Virus record (IMG/VR): IMGVR_UViG_3300040809_000756
Span: 1-51,519 of that record
Source of the DNA: a virus
DNA: 51,519 nucleotides
Reading direction: 5' to 3' (one strand)
How positions within the stretch are numbered: the stretch's first letter is position 1; each line of letters begins with the position of its first letter. Below are positions 33,481 through 50,771 of this stretch, in pieces. The position numbers and the translations under genes were made by a program. Below the pieces are notes generated by a model. It saw only the letters and a program-made list of their open reading frames with translations, ran no database searches and had not been told where the DNA came from.

Positions 33481-33508
33481 CACTACTAGGACACTTTAAG
33501 GGGCTCAG
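33481..33508 (-). repeat. 28-bp intergenic element, copy 1
   Basis: Core GAGCCCCTTAAAGTGTCC then TAGTAGTGTAAG in gene direction. Unlike other copies, the upstream 66-aa gene reads into it and ends at the TAG inside the element. The 79-aa gene starts 45 nt downstream. Confidence 0.9.
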
Positions 33509-33686
33509 TTACTGTTACCACTTCGGGGAACGTATAACGGAACTCATAAAGTAGCTGCTCATCACTGATAGTTTCCAGATTCTCACGCAGGTAATCAGAC
33601 AGTGCACATTCTAGATCTAGAGGTGTCATTCCTTCGATAGTTGCCTCGACGAGAGCATCAATCAAAATTTGACGATTAGCAAGCAT
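33486..33686 (-). CDS. 66-aa acidic protein ending inside the repeat
   Basis: MLANRQILIDALVEATIEGM, DLECALSDYLRENLETIS and DEQLLYEFRYTFPEV; helical, acidic, soluble, with no recognised domain. Its last eight residues (TEPLKVS and the preceding V) are encoded by the 28-bp intergenic repeat, because here the element is read in another frame and the gene stops at the element's TAG rather than the usual TGA. A hairpin and the 50-aa gene lie upstream. Confidence 0.7.
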   Translation of the reverse strand: MLANRQILIDALVEATIEGMTPLDLECALSDYLRENLETISDEQLLYEFRYTFPEVVTVTEPLKVS

Positions 33687-33721
33687 TTGAGTTAATTAAG
33701 AGGAAACGATTTAAGACTGTG

Positions 33722-33743
33722 AGAGGCACCTAGAAGCGCCTCT
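33722..33743 (-). terminator. Hairpin after the 50-aa gene
   Basis: Stem AGAGGC/GCCTCT around a 10-nt loop, immediately after the stop of the 50-aa gene. There is no long U tract behind it, so it could be an attenuator, an RNA-stability hairpin or a weak terminator. Confidence 0.4.
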
Positions 33744-33749
33744 AAGGTA

Positions 33750-33902
33750 TCAGAACTCCACGGGGAGTAGGGTAGGACCATCGGCGGCATAATTACCCGA
33801 TTCGCTACCCTCACCGTCGCTCACGAGTGCATTCAGAATCTCAAGGATTTGAGTGCCAGTGTTACTTTGACGCAGGGCGGAGAGCATCAGTGCCTTAGAC
33901 AT
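33750..33902 (-). CDS. 50-aa protein
   Basis: MSKALMLSALRQSNTGTQIL then EILNALVSDGEGSESGNYAA. The N-terminal half is helical and amphipathic, the C-terminal half is Gly/Ser-rich and acidic. The ATG at 33902 lies 18 nt after a 28-bp repeat copy, following the usual arrangement. It is too short for a domain call; the QSNTGTQILEIL pattern recurs in other cyanophage microproteins I remember. Function unknown. Confidence 0.65.
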   Translation of the reverse strand: MSKALMLSALRQSNTGTQILEILNALVSDGEGSESGNYAADGPTLLPVEF

Positions 33903-33920
33903 CTTTGAGTCGGTTGCTTA

Positions 33921-33948
33921 CACTACTGCTACACTTTAAGTGGCTCAG
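33921..33948 (-). repeat. 28-bp intergenic element, copy 2
   Basis: Core GAGCCACTTAAAGTGT, then AGCAGTAGTGTAAG. The upstream 57-aa gene stops 10 nt before it; the 50-aa gene starts 18 nt after it. Confidence 0.9.
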
Positions 33949-33958
33949 TAACTGCTAC

Positions 33959-34132
33959 TCACCAACGGTCGGGTGTACTCAAGTCCTCCACATATGCCTC
34001 ACACTTTTCTGCAGGTTCAAGTTTGAAGAGTTTCTCCCAATCAAGTTGATGTGGGTTAAAGTCTGCAAGTGCTTCAATCTCCAGAGTGATACGATAACGA
34101 TGCTTCTGGGCCTGAAGATAACTGAGAGACAT
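33959..34132 (-). CDS. 57-aa conserved protein, first gene of an early unit
   Basis: MSLSYLQAQKHRYRITLEIE, DFNPHQLDWEKLFKLEPAEK, CEAYVEDLSTPDRW. Soluble, mixed charge; the pattern HRYRITLE...FNPHQ-DWEKLFKLEP is one I recall in cyanomyophages. A strong ribosome site (AAGGAG) precedes the ATG at 34132, and a near-consensus sigma70 promoter (34160-34188) lies right upstream, so this is the first gene of a leftward early unit. No function is known. Confidence 0.75.
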   Translation of the reverse strand: MSLSYLQAQKHRYRITLEIEALADFNPHQLDWEKLFKLEPAEKCEAYVEDLSTPDRW

Positions 34133-34159
34133 GATTCGCTCCTTTGTTGTGACTTGAGT

Positions 34160-34188
34160 ATTCTAGGATATCAGTGCCGAAATGTCAA
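34160..34188 (-). promoter_or_regulatory. Sigma70-type promoter for the 57-aa gene
   Basis: On the minus strand: TTGACA, 17-nt spacer, TAGAAT. The -10 ends about 27 nt before the ATG at 34132. Same hexamers and spacing as the promoter at 51312-51340. Host RNA polymerase should read it early. Confidence 0.8.
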
Positions 34189-34260
34189 GAATCGTCGGAG
34201 TATTTATCTGGCACGGTGATAATTTGTGGACCTTATGTGTGGGATTTTTGACCTTGTGGG

Positions 34261-34289
34261 TTGACAAAGTGCGGTCCTTATGTTATGCT
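34261..34289 (+). promoter_or_regulatory. Possible plus-strand sigma70 promoter
   Basis: TTGACA, 17-nt spacer, TATGCT on the plus strand. No plus-strand gene follows, so transcription would yield only a non-coding RNA of about 140 nt towards the T run near 34440. Confidence 0.45.
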
Positions 34290-34309
34290 CGCTAAGATCA
34301 CAAGACTTG

Positions 34310-34347
34310 GAGGGCTTTATACAAGGTCCTCGAGGACTTTATACAAG
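34310..34347. repeat. Two 16-bp direct repeats around a palindrome
   Basis: GAGGGCTTTATACAAG and GAGGACTTTATACAAG differ at one base and are spaced 22 bp (two helical turns) apart; a decayed third unit may follow at about 34353. The palindrome GTCCTCGAGGAC overlaps the second copy. The two-turn spacing resembles protein-binding iterons or operators. Confidence 0.6.
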
Positions 34348-34461
34348 ATTTCAAGAGCTTTATGATACGAATTCATATCAGCAATCTACACAATTCATAT
34401 CATTATCAACACAATACAAAACGCTCAGCTATATTTTTTTAACCATTTATTAAATAAAAAC

Positions 34462-34488
34462 ATAAAAAAAACACCCTCTGGGGGTGTT
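34462..34488 (-). terminator. Rho-independent terminator
   Basis: Minus-strand stem AACACCC/GGGTGTT with a 5-nt loop followed by eight T. It overlaps the stop codon of the 50-aa membrane protein at 34487 and ends the unit that runs down from about 35,000. Confidence 0.88.
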
Positions 34489-34639
34489 ACTTAGGTCTTA
34501 TAATCTCCGAGGTAGTGTATAGTGCATCAGAGAGAAATTGTCTCGTTGGTGGTGACTTTGCAATCAACACAGAGACTAGAATAAGAATCAGAATCTTCAC
34601 TTGGTTAGCATAGAAGTTTGCAGATCTTGTCTTATTCAT
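34487..34639 (-). CDS. Single-pass membrane microprotein
   Basis: 50 aa: MNKTRSANFYANQVKILILI, then LVSVLIAKSPPTRQFLSDAL and a polar tail (YTTSEIIRPK). One hydrophobic segment at residues about 14-28 with a positively charged N-terminus. The ATG at 34639 lies 2 nt past the stop of the 110-aa gene, so the two are coupled. The stop TAA is the first base set of the terminator hairpin. It could be a membrane effector such as a holin-like or host-membrane-remodelling peptide, but nothing in the sequence proves that. Confidence 0.65.
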   Translation of the reverse strand: MNKTRSANFYANQVKILILILVSVLIAKSPPTRQFLSDALYTTSEIIRPK

Positions 34640-34641
34640 TC

Positions 34642-34974
34642 TCAACCCAGACGCATCGAAGAAAAGAAAGGAACGGTAGTTAATCCTTGAGCAGTGTTCA
34701 TATTAAGAAACCATTCTCCTGCTTTTTGGAATACACAATCACCATCTTCTCCGTGTGTCTGAAGAATAGCATTGAGGCGAGACTTAGTGGTTACTGATTG
34801 ATAACCACCATCGAATAAGCGAAGAAAAGTCTCACCAATCTCTGCAATCTTGTTACCGTGAAGAAATACTGTAGAGAGATCATTTTGCTCATCATAGGTA
34901 ACAACAGTATTAGCACTTTGCCAATTCTCGTTGTTAGTGATGGCATCATTCATTTGCTTTTCAATCTTACGCAT
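34642..34974 (-). CDS. Conserved 110-aa protein
   Basis: MRKIEKQMNDAITNNENWQS then NTVVTYDEQNDLSTVFLHGN, KIAEIGETFLRLFDGGYQSV, TTKSRLNAILQ and FQKAGEWFLN. I recall this family, with its VFLHGN-IA and GGYQS-TTKSRLNA patterns, in many cyanomyophages and some bacterial phages, always without known function. It is soluble. The first gene after repeat copy 3; a poly-A leader precedes the ATG and there is no strong Shine-Dalgarno. Confidence 0.78.
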   Translation of the reverse strand: MRKIEKQMNDAITNNENWQSANTVVTYDEQNDLSTVFLHGNKIAEIGETFLRLFDGGYQSVTTKSRLNAILQTHGEDGDCVFQKAGEWFLNMNTAQGLTTVPFFSSMRLG

Positions 34975-35005
34975 TTGGTTTTTTTTGTTTGAGGTTTGTT
35001 GCTTA

Positions 35006-35033
35006 CACTACTGGGACACTTTAAGGGGCTCAG
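35006..35033 (-). repeat. 28-bp intergenic element, copy 3
   Basis: Core GAGCCCCTTAAAGTGTCC then CAGTAGTGTAAG. The 81-aa gene stops 6 nt before it; the 110-aa gene starts 32 nt after it behind the usual leader GTAAGCAACAAAC. Confidence 0.92.
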
Positions 35034-35039
35034 TAAGCA

Positions 35040-35285
35040 TTAGGAAATCAAATCTTCTAGAATCTCATCACCATATAAATCTACAATTTCTTCCTTTAAT
35101 TGTTTCTCATCATAGTCATTCAGATTCTCCATGATAACATCATAGGCCATAATCATCAGAGTTTTAATATCCATATCATCCACAATCATCTGGGCATAAT
35201 TATCACGGAGATTGGAGAGTTGTTCTTGAGTAAGAGGCACGGGTTCAGATTTGAGGATTTCAGTGTAAAGATTAGAGTCAGACAT
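35040..35285 (-). CDS. 81-aa acidic helical protein
   Basis: LYTEILKSEPVPLTQEQLSN, DMDIKTLMIMAYDVIMENLN and KQLKEEIVDLYGDEILEDLI. Strongly acidic and mostly helical, with no known motif. It overlaps the upstream 63-aa gene by 8 nt (35278-35285), indicating coupled translation. Proteins with the pattern MIMAYDVI-ENL-DYDE occur in cyanophages as I remember them; function unknown. Confidence 0.72.
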   Translation of the reverse strand: MSDSNLYTEILKSEPVPLTQEQLSNLRDNYAQMIVDDMDIKTLMIMAYDVIMENLNDYDEKQLKEEIVDLYGDEILEDLIS

Positions 35286-35469
35286 TAGTCAGATCATTAA
35301 TAGTGAGAACATGAACATCAGGAACAGATTCATCAAAATGTTCGGACCATTCTTGATACAATGCAACAGCATCATCAAGAAGATTCTCATCTGTCAGTTT
35401 CATCACTTGTGCATGAATATCATCAAGAATCAGTGCCAACATATTGTCTTTTTGATTGTTGTTCATCAT
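35278..35469 (-). CDS. 63-aa acidic helical protein
   Basis: MLALILDDIHAQVMKLTDEN, LLDDAVALYQEWSEHFDESV. Acidic amphipathic helices, no membrane segment. It starts 6 nt downstream of the 52-aa gene and overlaps the 81-aa gene, within a four-gene unit begun by repeat copy 4. A second ATG two codons in (Met2) is equally possible. No family recognised. Confidence 0.68.
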   Translation of the reverse strand: MMNNNQKDNMLALILDDIHAQVMKLTDENLLDDAVALYQEWSEHFDESVPDVHVLTINDLTNV

Positions 35470-35475
35470 CAGAAA

Positions 35476-35634
35476 TTAGAGAACTTGAAAGTCAGTGAAA
35501 ATCTTAAGTTGTGTCGCAGTGAAGATTTTATCATCACTGCATTTTGAATACTTTTCGCGTTCTAGATCAACATATGTTTCGAGTGCACATTGTATTGCGC
35601 GATACTCAGCATTTGTCAATTCCAATTTCAGCAT
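35476..35634 (-). CDS. 52-aa conserved protein
   Basis: MLKLELTNAEYRAIQCALET, then YVDLEREKYSK and FTATQLKIFTDFQVL. The longer open frame from 35736 overlaps the 75-aa gene by 100 bases, so I chose the internal ATG at 35634, 1 nt after that gene's stop at 35636. The motif L-L-EY-AIQ-ALETY is one I recall in cyanophage microproteins. Soluble; function unknown. Confidence 0.7.
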   Translation of the reverse strand: MLKLELTNAEYRAIQCALETYVDLEREKYSKCSDDKIFTATQLKIFTDFQVL

Positions 35635-35635
35635 A

Positions 35636-35863
35636 TCAATCAAAACGGGATGAAATATCTTTTCCTGGGTTTTCATAGAATGAAACAGTCTCTGCAATCT
35701 GTGAAACATCATATGTGAATTGAACCATCTTTCCATCCTTGAGAATCTTATATTGAGTCAATTCTTTCCAGAATGGTTGACCATTATCATCCCAACTCTG
35801 ACGCTTTTCTTTGACAGGAACAATCTCATAATCCTGATTCGTTTTCAATGAGGTGTAAATCAT
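35636..35863 (-). CDS. 75-aa protein
   Basis: MIYTSLKTNQDYEIVPVKEK, WDDNGQPFWKELTQYKILKD and GKMVQFTYDVSQIAETVSFY. Beta-rich and soluble, with no named domain. It is the first gene after repeat copy 4; its leader (GTAAGGTTCAAACG, then A6) resembles that of the other genes after the repeat. Confidence 0.68.
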   Translation of the reverse strand: MIYTSLKTNQDYEIVPVKEKRQSWDDNGQPFWKELTQYKILKDGKMVQFTYDVSQIAETVSFYENPGKDISSRFD

Positions 35864-35883
35864 CTTTTTTCGTTTGAACCTTA

Positions 35884-35911
35884 CACTACTGGAACACTTT
35901 AAGTGGCTCAG
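35884..35911 (-). repeat. 28-bp intergenic element, copy 4
   Basis: Core GAGCCACTTAAAGTGTTCC then AGTAGTGTAAGG. The TGA stop of the 113-aa gene (35908-35910) is inside it; the 75-aa gene starts 20 nt after it. Confidence 0.93.
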
Positions 35912-36249
35912 TTACCCTTACTCATCAGAGTCATTGCATCATCTTCGGAGATGCAATCTTGTGGTAGAGTTACATTACGAGCACAATCAATCGCATCGGC
36001 AAAGTTATCGAAACTACCAAATGATTTCTGACTCCCAGACCAGAAGCCTTTGTACTCATAAATCATTGCTTCGACAGAGAATACATCCACTTTGGTATCA
36101 CGATTCACACCGTGCTTGATATAAACTTTTCCATCATTTCGGGTGTACTTATCAAAGGTGTTAGACTTGAAAGTACGCTCGAAATCAGTCACAAACTCTC
36201 TAGTGAGATCAGTATTCTGAGCGAAGAGATTAGCAAAGTGAATTGTCAT
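35908..36249 (-). CDS. 113-aa conserved protein
   Basis: MTIHFANLFAQNTDLTREFV, TDFERTFKSNTFDKYTRNDG, KVYIKHGVNRDTKVDVFSVE, FWSGSQKSFGSFDNFADAID. Mixed alpha/beta, soluble. The FGSFDNFADAIDCAR end is like small phage proteins of unknown function. Its stop is inside repeat copy 4 and its start follows repeat copy 5, so it forms a single-gene cassette bounded by repeats. Confidence 0.72.
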   Translation of the reverse strand: MTIHFANLFAQNTDLTREFVTDFERTFKSNTFDKYTRNDGKVYIKHGVNRDTKVDVFSVEAMIYEYKGFWSGSQKSFGSFDNFADAIDCARNVTLPQDCISEDDAMTLMSKGN

Positions 36250-36273
36250 TTTTTGAATTTCGTTTGTTCCTTA

Positions 36274-36301
36274 CACTACTGGTACACTTTAAGTGGCTCA
36301 G
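36274..36301 (-). repeat. 28-bp intergenic element, copy 5
   Basis: Core GAGCCACTTAAAGTGTACC then AGTAGTGTAAGG. The 82-aa gene stops 6 nt before it; the 113-aa gene starts 24 nt after it (leader GTAAGGAACAAACG). Confidence 0.93.
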
Positions 36302-36307
36302 TAGACA

Positions 36308-36556: not shown

Positions 36557-36593
36557 TTTCTTTTGATTATAATTTAAGTGTTGAATTGTGCAA

Positions 36594-36929: not shown

Positions 36930-36935
36930 AAGAGA

Positions 36936-37115: not shown

Positions 37116-37140
37116 TTTTCTCCTTTGGGTTTCTGTCTTA

Positions 37141-37168
37141 CACTACTGGAACACTTTAAGGGGCTCAG
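37141..37168 (-). repeat. 28-bp intergenic element, copy 6
   Basis: Core GAGCCCCTTAAAGTGTTCC then AGTAGTGTAAG. It follows the frameshifted gene (end 37175) by 6 nt; the 59-aa gene starts 26 nt after it. Confidence 0.92.
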
Positions 37169-37174
37169 TAAGCA

Positions 37175-37553: not shown

Positions 37554-37571
37554 GTTTGAGTGTGTTTCTTA

Positions 37572-37599
37572 CACTACTGGGACACTTTAAGTGGCTCAG
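37572..37599 (-). repeat. 28-bp intergenic element, copy 7
   Basis: Core GAGCCACTTAAAGTGTCCC then AGTAGTGTAAG. The 64-aa gene stops 6 nt before it; the 63-aa gene starts 18 nt after it. Confidence 0.93.
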
Positions 37600-37605
37600 T
37601 AACTA

Positions 37606-37848: not shown

Positions 37849-38748
37849 TTAACTCCAAACCTTTTCCATGTTGAAGTTTGCATAACTAAACTCTTCACGG
37901 TCAACAACCTTGAAAGTCCCATATTTGTTAGTAATGCAATAACCTTCATGGCAAACAAACGTATCACCAATCATACAAGCAATGTCATCGGTTTCTTTAA
38001 TGAACAAGAACAAATCATCCTTCATAGATGCAACCAACTTCCAAAGCCGTAGCAGGTTGATGTCACATTCACATTTTTCTGCAATTTCATCCTCAACAAT
38101 GGGTTGACCCTCACGGATGCAGGCATTGATTGCTTTTTTGATTTGTGTTGCCTTGCGAGCACTTACAAACTCACATAGAGTGGACATTTGACGGGCAAAT
38201 GCTGCAACATCTGCCAAATCTTCACGGTATGGGTTTAACTCAACCTCAGGTCGAATAAAAAGACAATTTTGAGTGCTAGGCAGGTCAAGAACCAAAGGAT
38301 ACGCATCAACCTCACGCAAATCATTCCCACCACTATAAACAGTGTGTGGGGCTACAATTATATCTTGAGAGATAAACTCTGGGAAGACATATGTCAAAGT
38401 GTTGGGGCGATAGGTATCAGAACCACCGACACCAATCCAATCACCTTGGACAATAGTTTTGGTGCGAGGAAGATACTTGAAGCAAAGATGCAGAATATCT
38501 GCAACTCTACCCTCATAGAACTTATCAATCTCCTGATGAGAATGTGCAATGCGAATCTTTACCTTGTTGAACACAGCTTTGGTGCCAACAAAGAACTTAC
38601 CATTTGCAGGATTAGTTCCCCACACAATAGCAGGAGCACCATCAATTTTGGTGCTGATGATAGAATCAGGGTCCGAGAACCAATCAAGAACCGAAAGGTC
38701 ACCCGTTAAGATAGAATCTTCAGGGTGGTCAAGGTGGATATTTTGCAT
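37849..38748 (-). CDS. KxDG nucleotidyltransferase/ligase-like protein (DUF6267-type)
   Basis: 299 aa. The N-terminal segment DSIISTKIDGAPAIVWG holds K34-x-D-G37, the lysine motif of covalent nucleotidyltransferases (DNA/RNA ligases, capping enzymes), followed by NPANGKFFVGTKAVFNK and, further on, TIVQGDWIGVGG and KYGTFKVVDREEF, which could be the later motifs. The arrangement KxDG-x-PAI, then NP-G-FFVGTK-FNK, is one I recall in a phage family (DUF6267). The middle is beta-rich and the C-terminal third helical. The gene lies after repeat copy 8. Nucleic-acid ligase or AMP/GMP transfer activity is inferred, not shown; the true ligase motif V (KxK) is not clear. Confidence 0.7.
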   Translation of the reverse strand: MQNIHLDHPEDSILTGDLSVLDWFSDPDSIISTKIDGAPAIVWGTNPANGKFFVGTKAVFNKVKIRIAHSHQEIDKFYEGRVADILHLCFKYLPRTKTIVQGDWIGVGGSDTYRPNTLTYVFPEFISQDIIVAPHTVYSGGNDLREVDAYPLVLDLPSTQNCLFIRPEVELNPYREDLADVAAFARQMSTLCEFVSARKATQIKKAINACIREGQPIVEDEIAEKCECDINLLRLWKLVASMKDDLFLFIKETDDIACMIGDTFVCHEGYCITNKYGTFKVVDREEFSYANFNMEKVWS

Positions 38749-38762
38749 TTAGTTGTTTCCTG

Positions 38763-38790
38763 TACTACTAGGACACTTTAAGGGGCTCAG
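38763..38790 (-). repeat. 28-bp intergenic element, copy 8
   Basis: Core GAGCCCCTTAAAGTGTCC then TAGTAGTACAGG. It sits directly after a terminator (38795-38819) rather than after a stop codon; the ligase-like gene starts 15 nt downstream. That a full copy follows a strong terminator supports promoter function. Confidence 0.92.
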
Positions 38791-38794
38791 ATAA

Positions 38795-38819
38795 TAAAAA
38801 AGGCACCGATTGATGCCTT
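38795..38819 (-). terminator. Rho-independent terminator
   Basis: Minus-strand stem AAGGCA/TGCCTT with an 8-nt loop followed by T6ATT. It ends the transcript of the CAAD-like gene, 6 nt after its stop, and lies immediately before repeat copy 8. Confidence 0.85.
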
Positions 38820-38825
38820 CAATTA

Positions 38826-39143: not shown

Positions 39144-39158
39144 GGAGCAGTGTGCTCC
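39144..39158 (-). promoter_or_regulatory. Leader hairpin of the CAAD-like gene
   Basis: Perfect 6-bp stem GGAGCA/TGCTCC with a 3-nt loop, extendable with GTG/CAC outside. It lies just after the presumed start of transcription at repeat copy 9 and 25 nt before the ATG, so it could stabilise the RNA 5' end. Confidence 0.45.
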
Positions 39159-39161
39159 TCA

Positions 39162-39189
39162 CACTACTGGAACACTTTAAGGGGCTCAG
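39162..39189 (-). repeat. 28-bp intergenic element, copy 9
   Basis: Core GAGCCCCTTAAAGTGTTCC then AGTAGTGTG. The dam stop TGA (39186-39188) is inside it; the CAAD-like gene starts 43 nt downstream. Confidence 0.92.
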
Positions 39190-40004
39190 TAGACAGCAAT
39201 CAATTCATTTGCTTTCTTTCTACTTCCACCATTTGCTGCAATAGTTCTAGACACTTGAATTGGATAAATTGTAGCATTTTTGTATAGTTCTCTGGTGATG
39301 GAAACGTCATGATTAGATACAATCACTTTAATACCCTTTGCAGCAAGAGATTCTGCAAGTTGTGCTAGTTTAACCTGCTGGTCTGATGTGAACCCATCAG
39401 TCGCATAGCTTGTGAAGTTTGATGTATCAGATGCAGGAACATATGGTGGGTCAAAATAGACAACATCACCTGCTTCCAAATCTTCATAAAGAGATAAATC
39501 TTCAAATGAAAGTGATGTGAACCGCACCAATTGTTTGGTGAGGAAATACATCCTAAATTTCATCATCTCTTCAGATGGACAAGTTGGTTTTTCATATTTA
39601 CCAAAAGGAACATTAAATCCACCATTTTTATTGTATCTTGACAGTCCATTAAAGCAATGACGATTCAAATAGATGAATAATCTTGCTCTCTCTGTTGAAT
39701 CTGTTGATTGATTGAAGTGTTCTCTCAAATCAAGATATGACTCTTTAGTATTATTCTCTGGAATGAACAGTTCTTCACAATACTGGATGAAGCTATCGTC
39801 ATTTGGATTCACCAGATTCTGATAGATTGCCACCAAATCTTTATTCACATCGTTGAGAATGTATTGCTCTGCTGATGTGTTCAGTGCAACAGCAAGGCTC
39901 CCACCAAAGGGTTCACAATAACGCTTTGGACTACCAATATGGGGAGTAAGATGGGGCAGAACCCGTGTTTTGTTTCCTGCCCACTTCAAGAAGGTTTTAT
40001 TCAT
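39186..40004 (-). CDS. dam: DNA adenine methyltransferase (Dam, D12 class)
   Basis: 272 aa, the usual Dam length. Motif X/I region FLKWAGNKTRVLPHL and EPFGGSLAVALN bind S-adenosylmethionine; DPPY (185-188, in YFDPPYVPASDTSNF) is the catalytic motif IV; LNRHCFNGLSRYNKNGGFNV with PFGKY is typical of GATC-specific Dam and phage T4 Dam. It transfers methyl to adenine N6, expected at GATC. It overlaps the stop of the 467-aa gene by ATGA, so the two are coupled. GATC is frequent in this window, so the phage does not avoid the site; protection of phage DNA from host restriction is the likely role. Confidence 0.93.
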   Translation of the reverse strand: MNKTFLKWAGNKTRVLPHLTPHIGSPKRYCEPFGGSLAVALNTSAEQYILNDVNKDLVAIYQNLVNPNDDSFIQYCEELFIPENNTKESYLDLREHFNQSTDSTERARLFIYLNRHCFNGLSRYNKNGGFNVPFGKYEKPTCPSEEMMKFRMYFLTKQLVRFTSLSFEDLSLYEDLEAGDVVYFDPPYVPASDTSNFTSYATDGFTSDQQVKLAQLAESLAAKGIKVIVSNHDVSITRELYKNATIYPIQVSRTIAANGGSRKKANELIAVY

Positions 40005-41404
40005 GCAAAAGAAGAAATCAAGGGGTTTGACGATTCTTTAATTTCATCAACAATTTTTTTCATAATACTATACTTTTGATCTGGTGTCTTTCTCCCTTCA
40101 TTGAAGGCAATTTCTCCAAGATATTCTCTATCTTCGGGTGGAATTTGTTTCATAGAGCAATCAATATTGGAACAATCCATCATTCTTTCAATATATCCTA
40201 AAAACAAAGATACATATACCTCTTCTTGATTTTTTACTACCGATCTCTGATATCCTCTACCTTTTTGATTTGGCAGGTCTTTTAGTTCTTCTTCAGTTTC
40301 TGCAGTGAAAGAATAGTTTTTTAGATAGGTATGAAGTCCTTTAGACTCTAATGCCAACCACTGTTGCCCTGTCATTTCATATCCTTTCCAGGTATTTTTA
40401 TCAAAAAATTTACCTTTTCTTTTTTTACTCATAAAATCCAAAGGATTTATTTCAAATAATGCAGACCAATAATCTAAAGGATCTTTACTAACTTTACCAA
40501 ATTCAACATCAATAGATTTTAAAACTTTTTTCAAACTTTCATTACCAACACCATATTTTTTTGCCGACAGAGAAAGTGATTGGAAGTAACATCCTGCGTG
40601 AGGATTAGATTTATTAAGAATATTATCCAGTTTCAAACTATCTAACCAGACAATCTCTTCACGAAAATCTTCAATAGCATCAATCAATTCAAATTTACCC
40701 TTTTTCCAACACTTAAACAAATGCCTCAAAGCACTACTGAATCCTGCTTCAACAAAGTACTTATGTGATATTTTTTTCTTTAATCCAGTAAGATTTAGAA
40801 TACCTTGAGTTTTGCATTTTACATTATCCACCGACGATTGAGAATCAAATTTGTCATAGATTTCTTGATATTCACTCACACCACCATCACAATCTGGAGC
40901 CCAAAGATAAAAATGAAATACCAAATTTTCATTCGGAACCATTTTAGAATAATCTTCCTCTTGCTCAATCAACCAATAATATAAATCTCTTCTGCGATGA
41001 AAATTTATAAGTGCAAGTGCAAATTTAGGATAGTGTTTTACTACTTCCTCTAGAGTTGTTTTCTTTTTAAGTTCTTCTACATTTATTGCAATATGAACTG
41101 TATTTGCAATTCCTTTTCTATATCCATCTCTATGAGAATCAAATAAACTCTTTGCCCAACTTGTAAGGTGTCCATCACCACCCACAACTTCATACAATCG
41201 TTCTGACGGACCTTCATCAATCAAATAACCCGAATTTGATTCGGGATTTTTCTCAAATAAAAATGAAAGTGCTTCTTCCGCACTTAAAGATATTTCAAGA
41301 AAGTTATCCCATTTATCGGAGCGTTCGGGATATTGATTGTAAGTATTTTTAGCGGTATCTACAATTTTAGACACCAATTCTGTGATAGAAAATTGTTTTT
41401 TCAT
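40001..41404 (-). CDS. 467-aa orphan protein coupled to Dam
   Basis: I do not recognise this protein. It is soluble and Lys/Glu-rich with many aromatic residues, no membrane segment and no Walker or metal-binding motif I can point to. Conserved-looking stretches are EGPSERLYEVVGGDGHLTSW, ALINFHRRRDLYYWLIEQEE, FHFYLWAPDCDGG and MTGQQWLALESKGLHTYLKN. Its stop overlaps the dam ATG by 4 nt, and the two-gene unit has its own sigma70 promoter (41472-41500) and no 28-bp repeat at its head. AT-rich codon use is stronger than in neighbours, which hints at a recent acquisition. A restriction, anti-restriction or DNA-modification partner of Dam is possible but unproven. Confidence 0.75.
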   Translation of the reverse strand: MKKQFSITELVSKIVDTAKNTYNQYPERSDKWDNFLEISLSAEEALSFLFEKNPESNSGYLIDEGPSERLYEVVGGDGHLTSWAKSLFDSHRDGYRKGIANTVHIAINVEELKKKTTLEEVVKHYPKFALALINFHRRRDLYYWLIEQEEDYSKMVPNENLVFHFYLWAPDCDGGVSEYQEIYDKFDSQSSVDNVKCKTQGILNLTGLKKKISHKYFVEAGFSSALRHLFKCWKKGKFELIDAIEDFREEIVWLDSLKLDNILNKSNPHAGCYFQSLSLSAKKYGVGNESLKKVLKSIDVEFGKVSKDPLDYWSALFEINPLDFMSKKRKGKFFDKNTWKGYEMTGQQWLALESKGLHTYLKNYSFTAETEEELKDLPNQKGRGYQRSVVKNQEEVYVSLFLGYIERMMDCSNIDCSMKQIPPEDREYLGEIAFNEGRKTPDQKYSIMKKIVDEIKESSNPLISSFA

Positions 41405-41971: not shown

Positions 41972-42008
41972 AATCAGTAAGCGAAAGTCAATGCAAGTTT
42001 GTTTCTTA

Positions 42009-42036
42009 CACTACTACAACACTTTAAGTGGCTCAG
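42009..42036 (-). repeat. 28-bp intergenic element, copy 10
   Basis: Core GAGCCACTTAAAGTGTTG then TAGTAGTGTAAG. The 72-aa gene stops 5 nt before it; the nuclease-like gene starts 38 nt after it. Confidence 0.92.
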
Positions 42037-42041
42037 TATTA

Positions 42042-43569: not shown

Positions 43570-43584
43570 TTAATCAATCGCTTA

Positions 43585-43612
43585 TACTATAGGGACACTT
43601 TAAGTGGCTCAG
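43585..43612 (-). repeat. 28-bp intergenic element, copy 11
   Basis: Core GAGCCACTTAAAGTGTCCC then TATAGTATAAG, the copy with the best -10-like hexamer (TATAGT). The 75-aa gene stops 6 nt before it; the helicase starts 15 nt after it. Confidence 0.92.
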
Positions 43613-43618
43613 TTGTTA

Positions 43619-43846: not shown

Positions 43847-43861
43847 TAAGTGTTCCGTATC

Positions 43862-43889
43862 TACTACTGGGACACTTTAAGTGGCTCAG
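43862..43889 (-). repeat. 28-bp intergenic element, copy 12
   Basis: Core GAGCCACTTAAAGTGTCCC then AGTAGTAGATAC. The 198-aa basic gene stops 2 nt before it; the 75-aa gene starts 15 nt after it. Confidence 0.92.
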
Positions 43890-43891
43890 TT

Positions 43892-44488
43892 TCAGCTCTC
43901 GTCGCCAGATGATGTGTACTTGTTCTTCAGTTCACTCTCTTTCTTTTTGCCTGTTGATTGAAGAACCAAATCTCTCAGTTTTCTTCTACCTTCTCTCTTA
44001 ATTCTTCTCTTCTCATCTCTAGTGTATTCTCCCCTTGTCATCTTTACCTGCTTCTCTCTTTCAGCAGTTGGTTTCTTCTTAGAAAGGAGTTTACTTCCTT
44101 CTTTATCTAAATCTCGTGATTTTGCTTTTGAAGATGTTGATGCAGTTCCTCCAGATGCCTTTTCCGCTGCTCTTTTTCTCGCTGCAGCTCTTCTTTCTGC
44201 CTTTACCTTATCTGCATATGATTGTTTAACCTCAGCAGAACCTCTTTCCTGTGTTGGTTGTTGCTGTCTTTCAGAACTTGATCTTTGGGTTCCAATATCT
44301 TTGCGGTCACTATATCTCTTTGCTGGTTCTGTTTTACCACCACCAACTCTCTTTCTTCTTCTAGTTTCTGCATCAGACAGTCTCCTGTCAGATCCTACTC
44401 TTCCACCTTCCCCAGTTTTTCTAATTTGGGAAGAACCCATTACATCAGCATCATATGCTTCGGCACAAAATTGAGAGAACGTCTTCAT
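43892..44488 (-). CDS. Very basic protein with capsid-targeting-like N-terminus
   Basis: 198 aa, about a third Lys/Arg. It starts MKTFSQFCAEAYDAD, which resembles the T4 capsid-targeting sequence (MKTYQEFIAEA) including a gp21-type cut after the Glu, although Cys replaces the usual Leu/Ile. The rest is Arg/Lys/Ser/Glu-rich and probably disordered (SDAETRRRKRVGGGKTEP, VKAERRAAARKRAAEKASGG, EYTRDEKRRIKREGRRKLRD). A terminator upstream (44538-44568) and a late promoter (GATAAATA at 44511-44518) set it apart from its early-type neighbours, as expected for a virion protein. I infer an internal head protein that coats DNA or is injected into the host. Confidence 0.72.
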   Translation of the reverse strand: MKTFSQFCAEAYDADVMGSSQIRKTGEGGRVGSDRRLSDAETRRRKRVGGGKTEPAKRYSDRKDIGTQRSSSERQQQPTQERGSAEVKQSYADKVKAERRAAARKRAAEKASGGTASTSSKAKSRDLDKEGSKLLSKKKPTAEREKQVKMTRGEYTRDEKRRIKREGRRKLRDLVLQSTGKKKESELKNKYTSSGDES

Positions 44489-44510
44489 CAGAATAAGAGA
44501 GATTTCTTAT

Positions 44511-44518
44511 TATTTATC
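44511..44518 (-). promoter_or_regulatory. Late promoter of the basic CTS-bearing protein
   Basis: Minus strand GATAAATA, one base from the T4 late consensus TATAAATA, 22 nt before the ATG at 44488 and just after a terminator. It is one of only two late-type boxes seen in the right block. Confidence 0.7.
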
Positions 44519-44537: not shown

Positions 44538-44568
44538 CAAAAAAGAGAGGGACTGTGGACAGCCCCTC
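44538..44568 (-). terminator. Rho-independent terminator
   Basis: Minus strand GAGGGGCTG-tcca-CAGTCCCTC (9 bp with one G-T pair) followed by TCTTTTTTG. It lies 7 nt after the stop of the 64-aa gene and insulates the late gene behind it. Confidence 0.88.
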
Positions 44569-44770: not shown

Positions 44771-44786
44771 TGTTGTTTGGTGATTG

Positions 44787-44814
44787 TAATACTAGAACAG
44801 TTTAAGTGGCTCAG
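44787..44814 (-). repeat. 28-bp intergenic element, copy 13
   Basis: Core GAGCCACTTAAACTGTTC then TAGTATTACAATC. The TGA of the 51-aa gene (44811-44813) is inside it; the 64-aa gene starts 16 nt after it. C replaces the usual G in the box, as in copy 16. Confidence 0.9.
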
Positions 44815-44966
44815 TTATCTTCTTTGTTGGTATTCACCCGAACGTTGTAAGGACTGTTGAAAAACCTACGGAAAGCAGTAACAACAATAACAAGCGCGGA
44901 AACCACGCCAACAAAACCAAGGATGGTGGTAGCATCACCAGTGAAAGTGTAGGTGTCAGGAGTCAT
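44811..44966 (-). CDS. 51-aa single-pass membrane protein
   Basis: MTPDTYTFTGDATTILGFVG, VVSALVIVVTAFRRFFNSPY and a polar tail (NVRVNTNKEDN). One hydrophobic segment at residues 15-32 followed by basic FRR, so the N-terminus probably faces the lumen/periplasm. The ATG at 44966 overlaps the stop of the 48-aa gene by ATGA. The shape resembles low-molecular-weight subunits of photosynthetic or respiratory complexes, but no match to a named subunit can be claimed. Confidence 0.7.
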   Translation of the reverse strand: MTPDTYTFTGDATTILGFVGVVSALVIVVTAFRRFFNSPYNVRVNTNKEDN

Positions 44967-45448: not shown

Positions 45449-45466
45449 AGTTTCGTTTGTTCCTTA

Positions 45467-45494
45467 CACTGTTGGTACACTTTAAGTGGCTCAG
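45467..45494 (-). repeat. 28-bp intergenic element, copy 14
   Basis: Core GAGCCACTTAAAGTGTACC then AACAGTGTAAGG. The TGA of the 83-aa gene (45491-45493) is inside it. The hexamer region is CAGTGT here, the weakest -10-like match of all. Confidence 0.92.
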
Positions 45495-45742
45495 TTTACC
45501 TTATCGTAGACTGATTCCCTAGACTTAACAAATTTTAAGTCTTTCCATGATTGATTGTAGCAGAGAATCAGGGTTCTTTCATTTCGATGGAATCCAGAAT
45601 GTACGAGATCTTCTTCAGGTTTTGGTTTTACATTGATTTCAATGGTTAGATAATCTTTGCATTTAAAGTAAATCCAACCTTCAATGTCAACACCAACACT
45701 CTGTTTCCACAGAACATAGTCATTTACTTTTGGTTCATACAT
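45491..45742 (-). CDS. 83-aa conserved protein
   Basis: MYEPKVNDYVLWKQSVGVDI, EGWIYFKCKDYLTIEINVKP, then HRNERTLILCYNQSWKDLKF. Beta-rich; the KVNDYV-W-(EGW-YFK) start is one I recall in cyanomyophages. I use the ATG at 45742, because the longer frame only gains a TTG start four codons earlier. It overlaps the end of the 106-aa gene by 8 nt. Possibly an SH3-like or OB-like small fold; function unknown. Confidence 0.72.
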   Translation of the reverse strand: MYEPKVNDYVLWKQSVGVDIEGWIYFKCKDYLTIEINVKPKPEEDLVHSGFHRNERTLILCYNQSWKDLKFVKSRESVYDKVN

Positions 45743-46478: not shown

Positions 46479-46515
46479 ATATCATGCAAGCAAGAAGAAT
46501 GCTCATTGAACTCTA

Positions 46516-46543
46516 CACAATTAGAACACTTTAAGTGGCTCAG
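46516..46543 (-). repeat. 28-bp intergenic element, copy 15
   Basis: Core GAGCCACTTAAAGTGTTC then TAATTGTGTAGAG. The TGA of cp12 (46540-46542) is inside it. A hairpin (46431-46478) lies between it and the 43-aa gene. Confidence 0.9.
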
Positions 46544-46752
46544 TCATCATAAACTCTACATTCAAGTGCATCAGGATTTGCATCACAATAAAGTTCTAAT
46601 GGGGTTGGATCGTGGTCATCATTTGGATGATTCTTTTTGTATTCTTTAAGAGCTTCTAATTCCTCTTCAGTATGCCTGCGAGACTGTGCAGAAATCATTG
46701 GATTGTCAAGGATAGATTGATCCTTTTCAATATGTTTGTCGATGTTTTCCAT
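46540..46752 (-). CDS. cp12: CP12-like Calvin-cycle inhibitor
   Basis: 70 aa. The end PLELYCDANPDALECRVYDD with C56 and C65 is the C-terminal CP12 signature (host form: PLE-FCDENP-A-ECR-YED), the disulfide loop that docks on GAPDH. The N-terminal half is helical and acidic (EEELEALKEYKKNHPNDDHD) but lacks the AWD-VEEL motif and the first Cys pair of full CP12. CP12 shuts off the Calvin cycle by tying GAPDH to phosphoribulokinase; phage versions are known to redirect host carbon to the pentose phosphate pathway. A late-type box (AATAAATA, 46771-46778) precedes it. Partial motif set lowers certainty of full function. Confidence 0.82.
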   Translation of the reverse strand: MENIDKHIEKDQSILDNPMISAQSRRHTEEELEALKEYKKNHPNDDHDPTPLELYCDANPDALECRVYDD

Positions 46753-47392: not shown

Positions 47393-47413
47393 AGTTTTTC
47401 AGTAGTTAATTTT

Positions 47414-47443
47414 ATTATACCACAAGTTAGAGTTTTCCGCCAA
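47414..47443 (-). promoter_or_regulatory. Sigma70-type promoter with extended -10
   Basis: Minus strand TTGGCG, 18-nt spacer, TATAAT with TGG directly before it (extended -10). It lies within the end of the 68-aa gene and about 22 nt before the ATG at 47392. Confidence 0.65.
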
Positions 47444-48122: not shown

Positions 48123-48568
48123 TTGTGCTCCCAAAAATCATCCCAATCTTTCTTGGTAGATGCAATATCAAGTCTAGCACGTTGATTATAGTATTCTGCT
48201 TCACGCAGATTATACTCATAACACTTTTGCTTTTCTTGGTCTGATGCTGCTTTGTCGCACATCGAGTTCAGTTCTTCTTCAGTGTAGTTTGTATTAGTAT
48301 TGAACTGAATGATACTCCTATCAGGATAACTGTAATCTCCTTTTATATGGTGAGAATGGCCAGTAAACATTTGTATCATTGCTGATACTTTTTCCAGTTT
48401 CTTTTTATGATAGTCTTGCCAAGTCTTAAGTTCATCAATCAAATCATTATAAAATATTAGAGCAGAATAGTTATCATCATCAAGATATTCTGCGATTGCG
48501 TCACCTATGTTGTCTTTCATTCGAATACGATGAAGATCAACATCACCATTACTAATTTCCTTTGTCAT
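48119..48568 (-). CDS. 149-aa conserved protein
   Basis: MTKEISNGDVDLHRIRMKDN, IGDAIAEYLDDDNYSALIFY, NDLIDELKTWQDYHKKKLEK then TEEELNSMCDKAASDQEKQK. Mostly helical. I chose the ATG at 48568, because the longer frame (48613) overlaps the 55-aa gene by 62 nt and adds non-conserved residues. It overlaps the neighbouring genes by 4-17 nt. The two Cys (in SMCDKAASDQEKQKCYEY) might pair. Function unknown. Confidence 0.7.
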   Translation of the reverse strand: MTKEISNGDVDLHRIRMKDNIGDAIAEYLDDDNYSALIFYNDLIDELKTWQDYHKKKLEKVSAMIQMFTGHSHHIKGDYSYPDRSIIQFNTNTNYTEEELNSMCDKAASDQEKQKCYEYNLREAEYYNQRARLDIASTKKDWDDFWEHK

Positions 48569-48719
48569 TGAGCTTCTCCTCAAGTTCTTCAATTCTAACA
48601 TAAAGATCTTCAATTAGTGAAGTGAGATTGTAAAAGTTGACTTTACCAAACTCATAGTATCCATTGTCTGCTGTAATTTCACTGAAGATTTCTCCCCATT
48701 TATGTGTTCTTTCAGTCAT
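48552..48719 (-). CDS. 55-aa protein
   Basis: MTERTHKWGEIFSEITADNG, YYEFGKVNFYNLTSLIEDLY, VRIEELEEKLNDKGN. Short strands, then an acidic C-terminal coil. The ATG at 48719 overlaps the upstream stop (TGATG), and it overlaps the 149-aa gene start by 17 nt. Function unknown. Confidence 0.66.
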   Translation of the reverse strand: MTERTHKWGEIFSEITADNGYYEFGKVNFYNLTSLIEDLYVRIEELEEKLNDKGN

Positions 48720-48847
48720 CACAAGTGTCCGTAGTTTTGTTGGTAATAAAGGAATCTTTGCATTGATGGTCTAACACCTAGACTCTCACAACATCTCAAA
48801 TAAGAGATGAATTCATACCAAGGTGCTGTAGGATCAGTGTCCGCCAT
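48719..48847 (-). CDS. 42-aa protein
   Basis: MADTDPTAPWYEFISYLRCC, ESLGVRPSMQRFLYYQQNYG, HL. Aromatic-rich, with a CC pair. It overlaps the 69-aa gene by 14 nt at the start and the next ATG at the end (TGATG). Such PWYEFI-YL-RC-LG--PS-QRF patterns occur in cyanophage microproteins as I remember them. Function unknown. Confidence 0.65.
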   Translation of the reverse strand: MADTDPTAPWYEFISYLRCCESLGVRPSMQRFLYYQQNYGHL

Positions 48848-49043
48848 ATCTACACCTCATTGTATGAAGATACTTAAGAACTTCTTCTCGAACTTCCATC
48901 AGTTCGTTGTAACACTTTTGATTGTGTGCACATTGGCGAAGTGATGAATCTGGTTTGTGAACAGATTCGATAAAGATGTCAAGTCCCCTCAACATCTTAT
49001 CTTCTTTAGATTCACCGTCAGGAATACTGTTCTGGTCTTTCAT
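48834..49043 (-). CDS. 69-aa protein
   Basis: MKDQNSIPDGESKEDKMLRG, LDIFIESVHKPDSSLRQCAH, NQKCYNELMEVREEVLKYLH. Helical with three Cys and an end TMRCRYGGH. Starts with a 4-nt overlap with the 53-aa gene and overlaps the 42-aa gene by 14 nt. Function unknown. Confidence 0.67.
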   Translation of the reverse strand: MKDQNSIPDGESKEDKMLRGLDIFIESVHKPDSSLRQCAHNQKCYNELMEVREEVLKYLHTMRCRYGGH

Positions 49044-49201
49044 TTGGATTCTAGTTCAATGGGACAATCTGAGTATTCCTTGAGAGTTTGTAGAATCTCT
49101 TGCTTTTCTGATTGGGTGATAGAATTGTTATCAAACATTCTGTTTGCAATTCTATTGAAATCAGAGCAAGAAAGTTCTAGAGACAGCATTAACTCTAACA
49201 T
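49040..49201 (-). CDS. 53-aa helical protein
   Basis: MLELMLSLELSCSDFNRIAN, RMFDNNSITQSEKQEILQTL, KEYSDCPIELESK. Helical. The ribosome site (TGGAGG) before its ATG is enclosed in a small stem (AATCC/GGATT at 49203-49216), which could tune translation. First of a chain of seven overlapping microgenes running down to about 47,620. Function unknown. Confidence 0.67.
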   Translation of the reverse strand: MLELMLSLELSCSDFNRIANRMFDNNSITQSEKQEILQTLKEYSDCPIELESK

Positions 49202-49222
49202 GGCAATCCTCCAGGATTACAT

Positions 49223-49417
49223 CTATTTAACAACCTCCCAATGGTCATCAGATCCCTCACTCATCCAGAACCAGTATTTGCCACTAATGGATGCAAGAAA
49301 CATCTTCCCATCTTTACGATTCTCCACTCTACATGTATGAAGGCTATTCATCATGTTAGCAAAACGATTTTTTGCCTTTGATGACTTCGGTTTGACGCAA
49401 ATTAGATCAGTTTTCAT
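49223..49417 (-). CDS. 64-aa conserved protein
   Basis: MKTDLICVKPKSSKAKNRFA, NMMNSLHTCRVENRKDGKMF, LASISGKYWFWMSEGSDDHW. A basic helix (KSSKAKNRFANMM) then four strands; the KAKNRFAN-M-S-H-C-VE-R pattern is a cyanophage microprotein type I recall. It follows repeat copy 16. Function unknown. Confidence 0.74.
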   Translation of the reverse strand: MKTDLICVKPKSSKAKNRFANMMNSLHTCRVENRKDGKMFLASISGKYWFWMSEGSDDHWEVVK

Positions 49418-49432
49418 TTGGGTGGTGGAATC

Positions 49433-49460
49433 TAATACCAGAACAGTTTAAGTGGCTCAG
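49433..49460 (-). repeat. 28-bp intergenic element, copy 16
   Basis: Core GAGCCACTTAAACTGTTC then TGGTATTAGATTC. The TGA of the DUF262 gene (49457-49459) is inside it. Like copy 13 it has C for G in the box. Confidence 0.9.
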
Positions 49461-50662
49461 TTTTCAAAACACCTGGTGAGAGTAGACAAATTATTAGTGT
49501 TAATACCAACAACTTTATCAATAATTTCACTCAACACAGTATGACGTGCTTTGAGATTTTCTGCACTCATGCCATTGCAGCACTCTTTGAATGTCTTTTC
49601 ATCTTCTCCACAAGTGAAAGTGCGATTTTTGTCACGATATGCTTCTTCATGAAGTTCAACTGCTTCAACAACTTGATCATAAGTTTCAAGTCCATTGCAC
49701 ATCATCCAGTACAGATTTTGCACTGCGGATGTGCGATTCAGAGACTTTTCTTCCAAAATTTCTTCTTGGTGCATCAGAGTGTTGAAGTCCATCAATTCAA
49801 CAAATTTGTCAGCGTAGAAGTCTGCATCTTCATCCACTGGGAAATCACTCTTATAGAGTTTATTCTTAGTGGTCTGACTCACACCACTAATCTTGGTTTC
49901 GTTCAGGATTGGGTCATGGTCAATGGCTTGAACTACCATATCGAGACAGTCTACAATCCATTCTTCACCACGAAGACGAGAACGGTGGTCCTTGAAGAGT
50001 TTAGCAAGGAGAGAACAAACCTCATCAGCAATATTACGAACATACCCAGCCCACACAGTTGAGTATGCATTGCGGAGTTCTTGTCCGTTAAGAGGAACAC
50101 CACTGTTCACATTTTGGAACACCTCAGACATACCTTCAAGGGTAATTTGAGTGTAGAGGCTAATTGCAGCTTGACGTTCTTCCAAAATCTCACGGACTCG
50201 TTCTGGTAGGTCGGAAAACTTTTGCTTTCCTTTCCGAACGGTGAAAGAAGAAATGGTGCCATTCAATTCATCGGTAATATATTCATACTTTCCTTCAGGA
50301 ATGGTGTAAGTGTCTTCAAACAGAGACTTAATGAAGCACATACGATTATTTCCATCAAGAATAACATACTTGTATCCTTCACTAAGGAAGCTCCTAAAGA
50401 ACTTGTATGTTTCGCTATCAACTTCACCTGCGGTTTCAAGACGACTGATACAAGATTTTACATCAACAAGAACATAAGTTCCTTCAACCCTATTCATTAG
50501 GATTGATTGGAAGAACTTCTTCCTATCTTCTGCTTTCCATGCGATAGGACGTTGGAATTGACGAGGTGCATTAAATGCTGCAAACTTTTGGAGCAAATAA
50601 GCATAGTCCAGGAGGTTAATACGTTCCTTCAGTGGGACAAGAAAATTTTGTTTGATTTTCAT
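49457..50662 (-). CDS. DUF262 (GmrSD/ParB-like) protein
   Basis: 401 aa. DUF262 signatures are in place: APRQFQRPIAWKAEDRKKFF (33-52; QR-x-x-x-W), YVILDGNNRMCFIKSLFE (99-115; DG-N-R, the catalytic-like motif), and VFQNVNSGVPLNGQELRNAY (181-200). This is the ParB-like nucleotidase fold found in GmrS of type IV restriction systems and in many defence and anti-defence proteins. No DUF1524 HNH nuclease half is fused, so it is a stand-alone DUF262 protein that might bind or hydrolyse nucleotides. The leader lacks a Shine-Dalgarno and has an A7/T11 pair. It starts after repeat copy 17. Confidence 0.85.
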   Translation of the reverse strand: MKIKQNFLVPLKERINLLDYAYLLQKFAAFNAPRQFQRPIAWKAEDRKKFFQSILMNRVEGTYVLVDVKSCISRLETAGEVDSETYKFFRSFLSEGYKYVILDGNNRMCFIKSLFEDTYTIPEGKYEYITDELNGTISSFTVRKGKQKFSDLPERVREILEERQAAISLYTQITLEGMSEVFQNVNSGVPLNGQELRNAYSTVWAGYVRNIADEVCSLLAKLFKDHRSRLRGEEWIVDCLDMVVQAIDHDPILNETKISGVSQTTKNKLYKSDFPVDEDADFYADKFVELMDFNTLMHQEEILEEKSLNRTSAVQNLYWMMCNGLETYDQVVEAVELHEEAYRDKNRTFTCGEDEKTFKECCNGMSAENLKARHTVLSEIIDKVVGINTNNLSTLTRCFEN

Positions 50663-50743
50663 TTAAAAAAAAAAATAGTTTGATTTTTTTGCAATTTTCT
50701 TCAGTATGTTAGAAGAACTTTGCTGATTGAACTGTGTTTCGTT

Positions 50744-50771
50744 CAATACTAAGACATTTTAAGGGGCTCAG
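50744..50771 (-). repeat. 28-bp intergenic element, copy 17
   Basis: Core GAGCCCCTTAAAATGTCT then TAGTATTGAACG. The 163-aa gene stops 9 nt before it; the DUF262 gene starts about 80 nt after it. The hexamer TAGTAT fits a -10. Confidence 0.88.

Follow-up and report, generated by a model that had tools for sequence, protein, structure and literature searches.

What is the role of a short sequence that recurs 17 times between the small genes of a phage, always in the same orientation? The question is raised by the IMG/VR virus record IMGVR_UViG_3300040809_000756, of which positions 1 to 51,519 were analysed as one stretch of 51,519 nucleotides (nt), hereafter the window. An earlier note, made from the letters alone, had taken the repeats for middle-type promoters with an activator box upstream of a TAnnnT -10, with an RNA site or a recombination boundary as alternatives. 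The copies, their genome-specific box and constant core, the covariation of this box with the C-terminus of one phage protein and the prediction of unseen boxes from that C-terminus were computed here. As a whole, the observation is confirmed; the promoter reading finds partial support, and a candidate factor is added to it: the copies are probably phage-specific early promoters, whose box would be read by an activator delivered with the virion.

The pattern CTGAGCCMCTTAAASTGT matches the window 17 times (16 times exactly and once with a single mismatch), always on the minus strand between 33491 and 50771, against a mean of 0.12 and a maximum of 2 in 100 shuffles. At two mismatches, the box CTGAGCC(A/C)CTTAAA(G/C)TGT retrieves the same 17 copies and none on the plus strand of the whole window. 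All 17 lie outside the structural block, as had been noted before. The description of the copies as always intergenic holds in the sense that, according to our own gene calls, they are placed at gene ends or in gaps; it fails for one open reading frame (ORF; 33486–33686), which runs through the box at 33508 and has its stop codon inside the element. In six copies (box starts 35911, 39189, 44814, 45494, 46543 and 49460), the TGA within CTGAGCC is the stop codon of the upstream ORF, in line with the at least six counted earlier, and the copy at 38790 does follow directly on a terminator (38820–38799). As for the variable hexamer, TANNNT stands at its fixed place in 10 of the 17 copies, the seven others having TAGTAG, TAGTAC, TATTGA, TATTAG, TTGTGT, CAGTGT and TATTAC. 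The copies are set in a run of small co-directed ORFs that flank a uvsW-like helicase gene, and lie upstream of the baseplate genes gp25/gp6; helicase, gp25 and gp6 are named here after the annotation of the syntenic S-SM2 region and by resemblance. The copies are listed below as located by pattern match, with stop codons and neighbouring genes taken from the gene calls, terminators from a terminator scan and the promoter match from a promoter scan.

33477–33510, minus strand: element copy 1 (13-bp box and 21-bp core), an ORF reading through the box
33917–33950, minus strand: element copy 2
35002–35035, minus strand: element copy 3
35880–35913, minus strand: element copy 4, the stop codon of the upstream gene inside the box
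36270–36303, minus strand: element copy 5
37137–37170, minus strand: element copy 6
37568–37601, minus strand: element copy 7
38759–38792, minus strand: element copy 8, right behind an intrinsic terminator
38799–38820, minus strand: terminator-like hairpin with a T run, upstream of copy 8
39158–39191, minus strand: element copy 9, stop codon inside the box
42005–42038, minus strand: element copy 10
43581–43614, minus strand: element copy 11, before the uvsW-like helicase gene
43858–43891, minus strand: element copy 12, right behind the gene of the candidate box reader (see below)
44783–44816, minus strand: element copy 13 (AAACTGT variant), stop codon inside the box
45463–45496, minus strand: element copy 14, stop codon inside the box
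46512–46545, minus strand: element copy 15, stop codon inside the box
49429–49462, minus strand: element copy 16 (AAACTGT variant), stop codon inside the box
50740–50773, minus strand: element copy 17 (with a single mismatch), which overlaps a promoter match of the form TTGACA-17-TAAAAT

The search for the box in other phage genomes, which the earlier note had proposed as a check, returned the exact window box in 28 IMG/VR stretches. Each of the longer records carries it in a single stretch only: 18 reverse-strand copies at 52–75 kilobases (kb) of a 112-kb record, 11 copies at 156–169 kb of a record of 184 kb (which also has one forward match at three mismatches) and 16 copies at 0.6–21.7 kb of a 67.5-kb record. 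Two exact 18-bp boxes without core, apparently inside a reading frame as judged by eye (L002, 3983–4000; L008, 13528–13545), are probably due to chance. In the cultured phage S-SM2, the same locus holds element copies that agree in the 3' half and differ in the 5' half (GGGGGGTCGCCTAAAGCGTCCCTATAGTGTAAG), and a pattern for the shared half, AAAGYGTNCCNRTAGTRTRAG, matched at least 120 IMG/VR stretches. A survey of 131 contigs (1.83 megabases, at most three mismatches) yielded 681 copies vs. 5 for the reversed pattern, and in 93 of the 93 contigs with at least three copies all of them are on one strand. Among the 11 isolates searched, S-SM2 has 11 copies and SynMITS9220M01 has 9, with the boxes AGGGGGGTCGCCT and GTTACTCACCTCT, while the remaining nine, like the control, have at most one copy, at three mismatches. 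The element thus belongs to a large family in T4-like cyanophages. Near-identical contigs were retained in this survey and in the counts of core-picked and box-picked copies given below, whereas duplicate sequences were removed for the start-codon, second-methionine, terminator, Mantel, 22-family and C-terminus counts; contigs with fewer than two or three elements were left out of counts.

The members of the family share a 3' core, AAAGTGTCCC-(TA)TAGTRTRAG, preceded by a 13-bp box that differs greatly from one genome to another. Box mismatches average 1.2 within and 7.0 between contigs, vs. 3.3 and 4.4 for the 21-bp core; the box is therefore a property of the genome, while the core varies from copy to copy. 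Since the core had served to select copies, the 98–99% of core-picked copies with TAnnnT is partly circular, and copies were re-picked by the box of each contig with at most one mismatch. This gave 551 copies on 91 contigs, with none on the opposite strand and one for the reversed-box control. AAA directly follows the box in 548 of them, TAnnnT stands at +12 in 491 and a T followed by a purine occupies +15/+16 in 542, conservation fading after about +22, i.e. 5–6 nt past the hexamer. Such a layout would be that of a sigma70-type promoter in which a variable box substitutes for the -35 element. The activator box upstream of a TAnnnT -10 that had been postulated from the window is supported by the 491 hexamers, by the 12-bp spacing, by copies that stand right behind terminators and by the finding of a protein that tracks the box, to which we now turn.

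A comparison of the ORFs of whole records retained 24 S-SM2 ORFs that are also present in SynMITS9220M01 and in the records G002 and G018 but absent from Syn9, S-PM2 and Syn19. One of them, SSM2_065, encodes a basic protein of about 200 amino acids, whose homologue in the window is the candidate box reader (hereafter the reader). Its profile matches both element-bearing isolates, three large element-bearing records and none of the nine element-lacking isolates. The corresponding features of the window are as follows.

43892–44488, minus strand: gene of the candidate box reader, a basic protein of 198 amino acids (55 K+R, 30 D+E) with the N-terminus MKTFSQFCAEA, found by ORF comparison and covariation
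44506–44518, minus strand: late-promoter-like GATAAATA upstream of the reader gene, found by motif scan
44547–44568, minus strand: terminator-like hairpin separating the reader gene from the small gene before it, found by terminator scan

Box distances were compared with reader distances in 40 contigs, obtained from 47 by removing four partial readers and three duplicates. The correlation is highest for the C-terminal part of the reader (r = 0.60), followed by the middle (0.30) and N-terminal (0.19) parts. Contigs are not independent and partial tests correct for relatedness only to the extent of the covariates used; given the rest of the reader, the C-terminal part still correlates with the box (partial Mantel r = 0.54, p = 0.0001, n = 40), vs. 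0.11 (p = 0.08) for the N-terminal and 0.08 (p = 0.12) for the middle part. The median C-terminal distance is 0.21 for pairs sharing a box (n = 36) and 0.81 for pairs with different boxes (n = 629). The C-terminal signal persists when elements less than 700 nt from the gene are left out (r = 0.56, n = 35) and with the distances of the helicase (0.58, n = 33) or DUF6267 (0.53, n = 28) as covariate. When 22 gene families from the cluster were ranked, the reader came first (r = 0.51), the helicase and DUF6267 being at 0.04 and 0.06. A family starting with MATRSR (r = 0.42, n = 27) was considered as another partner of the box and rejected: where both genes are present (21 contigs), its correlation drops to 0.14, or 0.16 given the C-terminal part of the reader, which itself stays at 0.63 either way. 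Natural swaps also occur: L159, L128 and L146 share one box and near-identical C-termini while their N-terminal parts differ by 42–61%.

The C-terminus also predicts boxes. The reader profile was found in 532 encoding stretches, of which 80 were kept; after removal of six loci on contigs already in the element set, and of 8 out of 69 with fewer than two elements, 61 new loci remained. Assigning to each the box of its nearest training C-terminus resulted in 2.2 mismatches out of 13, vs. 4.9 with the N-terminal part, 4.6 with the middle part and 6.7 at random. For the 37 non-redundant loci, the corresponding values are 2.7, 5.3, 4.5 and 6.8. The box version is thus largely predictable from the C-terminus of the reader. 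Among 78 distinct C-termini, examples of pairing are TRxEK-KxxVR with GGGCCC, ER-DxxxN/G with CTCACC, MxQQR with GTAACC and KALYK with GGGACG; exceptions are L319 (residues of the CTCACC type with a GTAACC box), L101 (KALYKK with GGGTCG) and L119 (KSLYKK with GGGGCC). Inner hexamers are at most one base apart in 195 of the 227 pairs with similar residues at these places, vs. 355 of the 2776 other pairs. The strongest links between residues and bases are those of residue 161 with positions -8, -7 and -9, 164 with -8, 157 with -4 and 180 with -10, residues 161 and 164 also carrying signal for outer box positions. A strict code in two halves was discarded, since cross terms of 0.20 and 0.13 accompany the expected ones (inner half-box with the first part of the C-terminus, partial r = 0.28; outer half-box with the second, 0.26); the pairing of halves is only a tendency.

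Concerning the time at which the reader is made, TAAATA occurs no more than 60 nt upstream of the gene in 45 of 47 cases, vs. 280 of 2085 other intervals, and in 61 of 68 new loci. The consensus start of 43 homologues, MKTFxEFxxEA, resembles the N-terminus MKTYQEFIAEA of T4 ipII and ipIII, both annotated as internal virion proteins; we take this stretch to be their capsid-targeting sequence. From this start and the upstream TAAATA, the reader is probably made late and packed into the head. It would then act on early rather than middle genes, so the middle-type label of the earlier note is not retained. In agreement with this, neither MotA (PF09114; T4 control 3e-63) nor AsiA (PF09010; T4 control 2e-43) was detected in any of five element-bearing records, and the TGCTT centre of the MotA box is present in none of 93 consensus boxes. 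A narrow-pattern search for proteins with a head-targeting-like start found none in Syn9, S-PM2 and Syn19, a result that is uninformative as the pattern also missed the S-SM2 reader. Further proteins starting with MKT(F/Y)xxF and preceded by TAAATA occur at about 99343 and 166535 in G002 and about 203448 in G018, and are possible other packaged proteins.

Terminators provide a separate line of evidence. A terminator-like hairpin was detected within 75 nt upstream of 18 out of 464 copies; 11 of these, on 11 contigs, are strong as judged by eye, with a T run starting 8–19 nt before the box. Little besides the element lies between such a terminator and the next gene, the element therefore being nearly the sole sequence left to start that gene.

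The proposal that emerges is that each copy would serve as a phage-specific promoter for small, probably early genes, the constant core supplying a sigma70-type -10 hexamer (TAGTRT) and the variable 13-bp box taking the place of the -35 element. The box would be bound by the C-terminal part of the basic, presumably virion-packaged reader, which would enter with the DNA and let the host RNA polymerase start at the element. Box and C-terminus would co-evolve, giving each phage lineage a private pair. Binding to DNA rather than RNA, activation, packaging, injection, early timing and the start site are what we infer from sequence.

Several points weigh against this proposal. Regarding the reader, its profile has no match in the element-bearing fragments G020 and G023, whose element clusters sit at contig ends; no match to known families was found in Pfam (two members scanned), in NCBIfam (40 members) or in the PDB, and PHROG gave one marginal match among 40 members. 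Its AlphaFold2 model has a low mean predicted local distance difference test score of 67, with a confident C-terminal helix (157–179) and a poor prediction outside it. With respect to the covariation, a correlation with the box at p < 0.05 is also seen for 8 of the 21 other gene families (r = 0.10–0.42), and the whole N-terminal and middle parts of the reader likewise correlate with it before correction (0.19 and 0.30), so part of the signal is shared history; and several predictions failed, with six mismatches for L318 and L263 and five for L262, L285 and L276. The hexamer is missing from its fixed place in 7 of the 17 window copies and 60 of the 551 box-picked ones. All 11 strong terminators, by eye, stand before the DUF6267 family and hence represent one kind of case rather than 11 independent ones. 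Finally, part of the small-gene cluster may be served by host-type promoters, as putative ones are present there (see below).

Start codons raise a further difficulty. Of 347 copies, 265 were classed, those with an unclear downstream gene being left out: the downstream gene is in frame with the ATG of copies ending in TAGT-ATG in 120 of 126 cases, vs. 18 of 47 for ATA and 42 of 89 for GTA endings. Moreover, 59 of the 153 genes behind TAGT-ATG have no other methionine in residues 2–12, so an mRNA including the 3' end of the element must exist. In L068, L074 and L100, a copy of this kind stands behind a strong terminator, and a start 6–8 nt after the hexamer could not serve the gene there. Either TAGT-ATG genes are supplied by read-through or transcription starts at the purine after TAGT. 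The latter corresponds to a different geometry, compatible with an element read by the reader, in which TAGTRT would not be a -10 and ATG copies would give leaderless mRNAs. It agrees with a start codon offset of 0 in 120 of the 126 ATG copies and of at least 15 in 129 of the 136 ATA and GTA copies, with the purine after the T of TAGT in the box-picked copies and with the three terminator-preceded copies that depend on their ATG. The position where it would need a -10 holds no such hexamer (consensus TGTCCC), and no T7-type single-subunit RNA polymerase (PF00940; T7 control 1e-109) was found in the five element-bearing records. We regard this variant as unlikely, if still the best placed of the alternatives.

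A late-made repressor would use the same site and the same protein, binding the box late to shut the early promoters and being packaged incidentally or not at all. The late-type TAAATA before the reader gene would suit it, as would the overlap of the box with the -35 region, since the polymerase can also be blocked by a protein bound there. Yet the boxes are unlike TTGACA, so the host polymerase without an activator would have only the -10, and the ipII/ipIII-like N-terminus points to delivery with the DNA; a repressor is accordingly judged improbable.

A slightly poorer prospect still is that the copies act in the mRNA between genes, in translation start, processing or stability, the reader binding RNA. 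The frame bias of the ATG copies and the stop codons inside the box would fit, and by eye a small hairpin is possible in the boxes of both S-SM2 and the window. In-frame ATGs are, however, also expected if read-through mRNA punishes out-of-frame ones, and copies right behind terminators would have little RNA to act on. A hairpin, an idea prompted by the S-SM2 copies, was rejected on covariation: over 77 distinct consensus elements, none of seven pairs shows compensatory change, their paired fraction being at most that of shuffled sequences, and Rfam gave no match to the element above its cut-off.

A recombination boundary at which single-gene cassettes move, regulation being secondary, is very improbable: by eye some element junctions differ between relatives and pooled neighbour conservation is lower at elements (1034 of 2948 pairs vs. 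3237 of 6811 elsewhere), but per family it is equal (0.49 for 32 families vs. 0.47 for 89, p = 0.81), and such a boundary would leave unexplained why the C-terminus of the reader tracks the box.

If the promoter proposal is taken further, the reader would be a capsid-delivered, sequence-specific activator whose recognition helix drifts together with the box, providing a private early-promoter key that denies co-infecting relatives the use of the phage's genes and a recognition code readable from metagenomes; to this fuller version we give somewhat less than an even chance. A virion-borne, sequence-specific activator would, to our knowledge, be unusual for a phage. The takeover of transcription by T4-like cyanophages is poorly understood, and the element and its reader represent a candidate promoter family with a candidate factor, testable at once because the latter is present in two cultured phages (S-SM2 and SynMITS9220M01). 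Hundreds of natural box–protein pairs (532 reader loci) would allow a DNA-recognition code to be derived from sequence. The element-plus-reader pattern suggests a private lock-and-key for starting infection, which, if true, would have consequences for how co-infecting marine viruses exchange genes and compete.

Other features of the window were also recorded. A scan for TTGACA-17-TANNNT gave 58 matches vs. 51 expected in shuffles, so only matches at 11 of 12 positions are worth mentioning. At copy 17 (50740–50784), a promoter match (50784–50756) supplies TTGACA-17-TAAAAT, the AAAATGT variant of the element forming the -10. Near-consensus matches to TTGACA-17-TANNNT on the minus strand at 51340–51312, 41500–41472 and 34188–34160 stand before the genes 50781–51272, 40001–41404 and 33959–34132, respectively. 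At 39186–41404, a D12-class adenine methyltransferase (PF02086) adjoins a 467-amino-acid protein with its own TTGACA promoter match, the pair being possibly a modification or defence cassette. The gene at 49457–50662 has a match to the N-domain of GmrSD-type nucleases (PF03235, E = 1e-8). As for the DUF6267 gene (37849–38748), its product has a KIDGAP motif that by eye resembles what we take to be motif I of nucleotidyltransferases; the element of this gene often comes after a terminator, and in many phages the gene has its start codon fused to that element.

Comparison with known systems begins with Syn9, a T4-like cyanophage in which, as reportedly described by Doron et al. in 2016, a novel element controls early-gene transcription, as in its kin; phage-specific early elements are therefore no new idea for cyanophages. 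At the same locus, Syn9 has TATTCTATAAGAG and TATACTA motifs before genes, similar to TATAGTATAAG. Unlike the genomes bearing the present element, it has no copy at up to three mismatches and no reader homologue, and has its own upstream motif, GGTGGCAC or GTGTCCAC. In the 42–54 kb part of its genome (L182), this motif lies upstream of TATTCTATAAGAGTCAAAGG before early-region genes, a pair at which another reader may act. No report of a genome-specific box, its reader and their covariation was found in the literature searched, and a text search for four element strings returned only an unrelated 12-base match. T4 ipII and ipIII share with the reader the type of N-terminus (MKTYQEFIAEA vs. MKTFxEFxxEA), whereas the remainder of the reader is, by eye, unrelated to them and its packaging is a prediction.

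Repeated regulatory elements between the genes of T4-like phages are also known as PeSL, the promoter–terminator cassettes cited in PMC4503421; compared with these, as described there, the present element has a terminator in only 18/464 copies and gene shuffling is not raised per family. In the halovirus HF2, intergenic repeats of 29 and 58 bp are conserved in the viral genus and nine cloned ones all had promoter activity (PMC8707807). Like them, the present copies recur between the genes of related viruses; HF2 is archaeal, and that description of it names neither a genome-specific box nor a reader protein. The closest parallel is with the middle promoters of T4, from which the present system differs by an unrelated box that changes from genome to genome, by a reader without Pfam match for the two members scanned that looks packaged rather than early-made, and by the absence of detectable MotA and AsiA from the five records mentioned. 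In both, a box stands at the place of the -35 element in many copies, and the proposed reader, of about 200 amino acids, is basic like MotA (211 amino acids); the 13-bp box ends 12 bp before TAGTRT, and the MotA box is given as 12 ± 1 bp from the -10 (PMC2988021).

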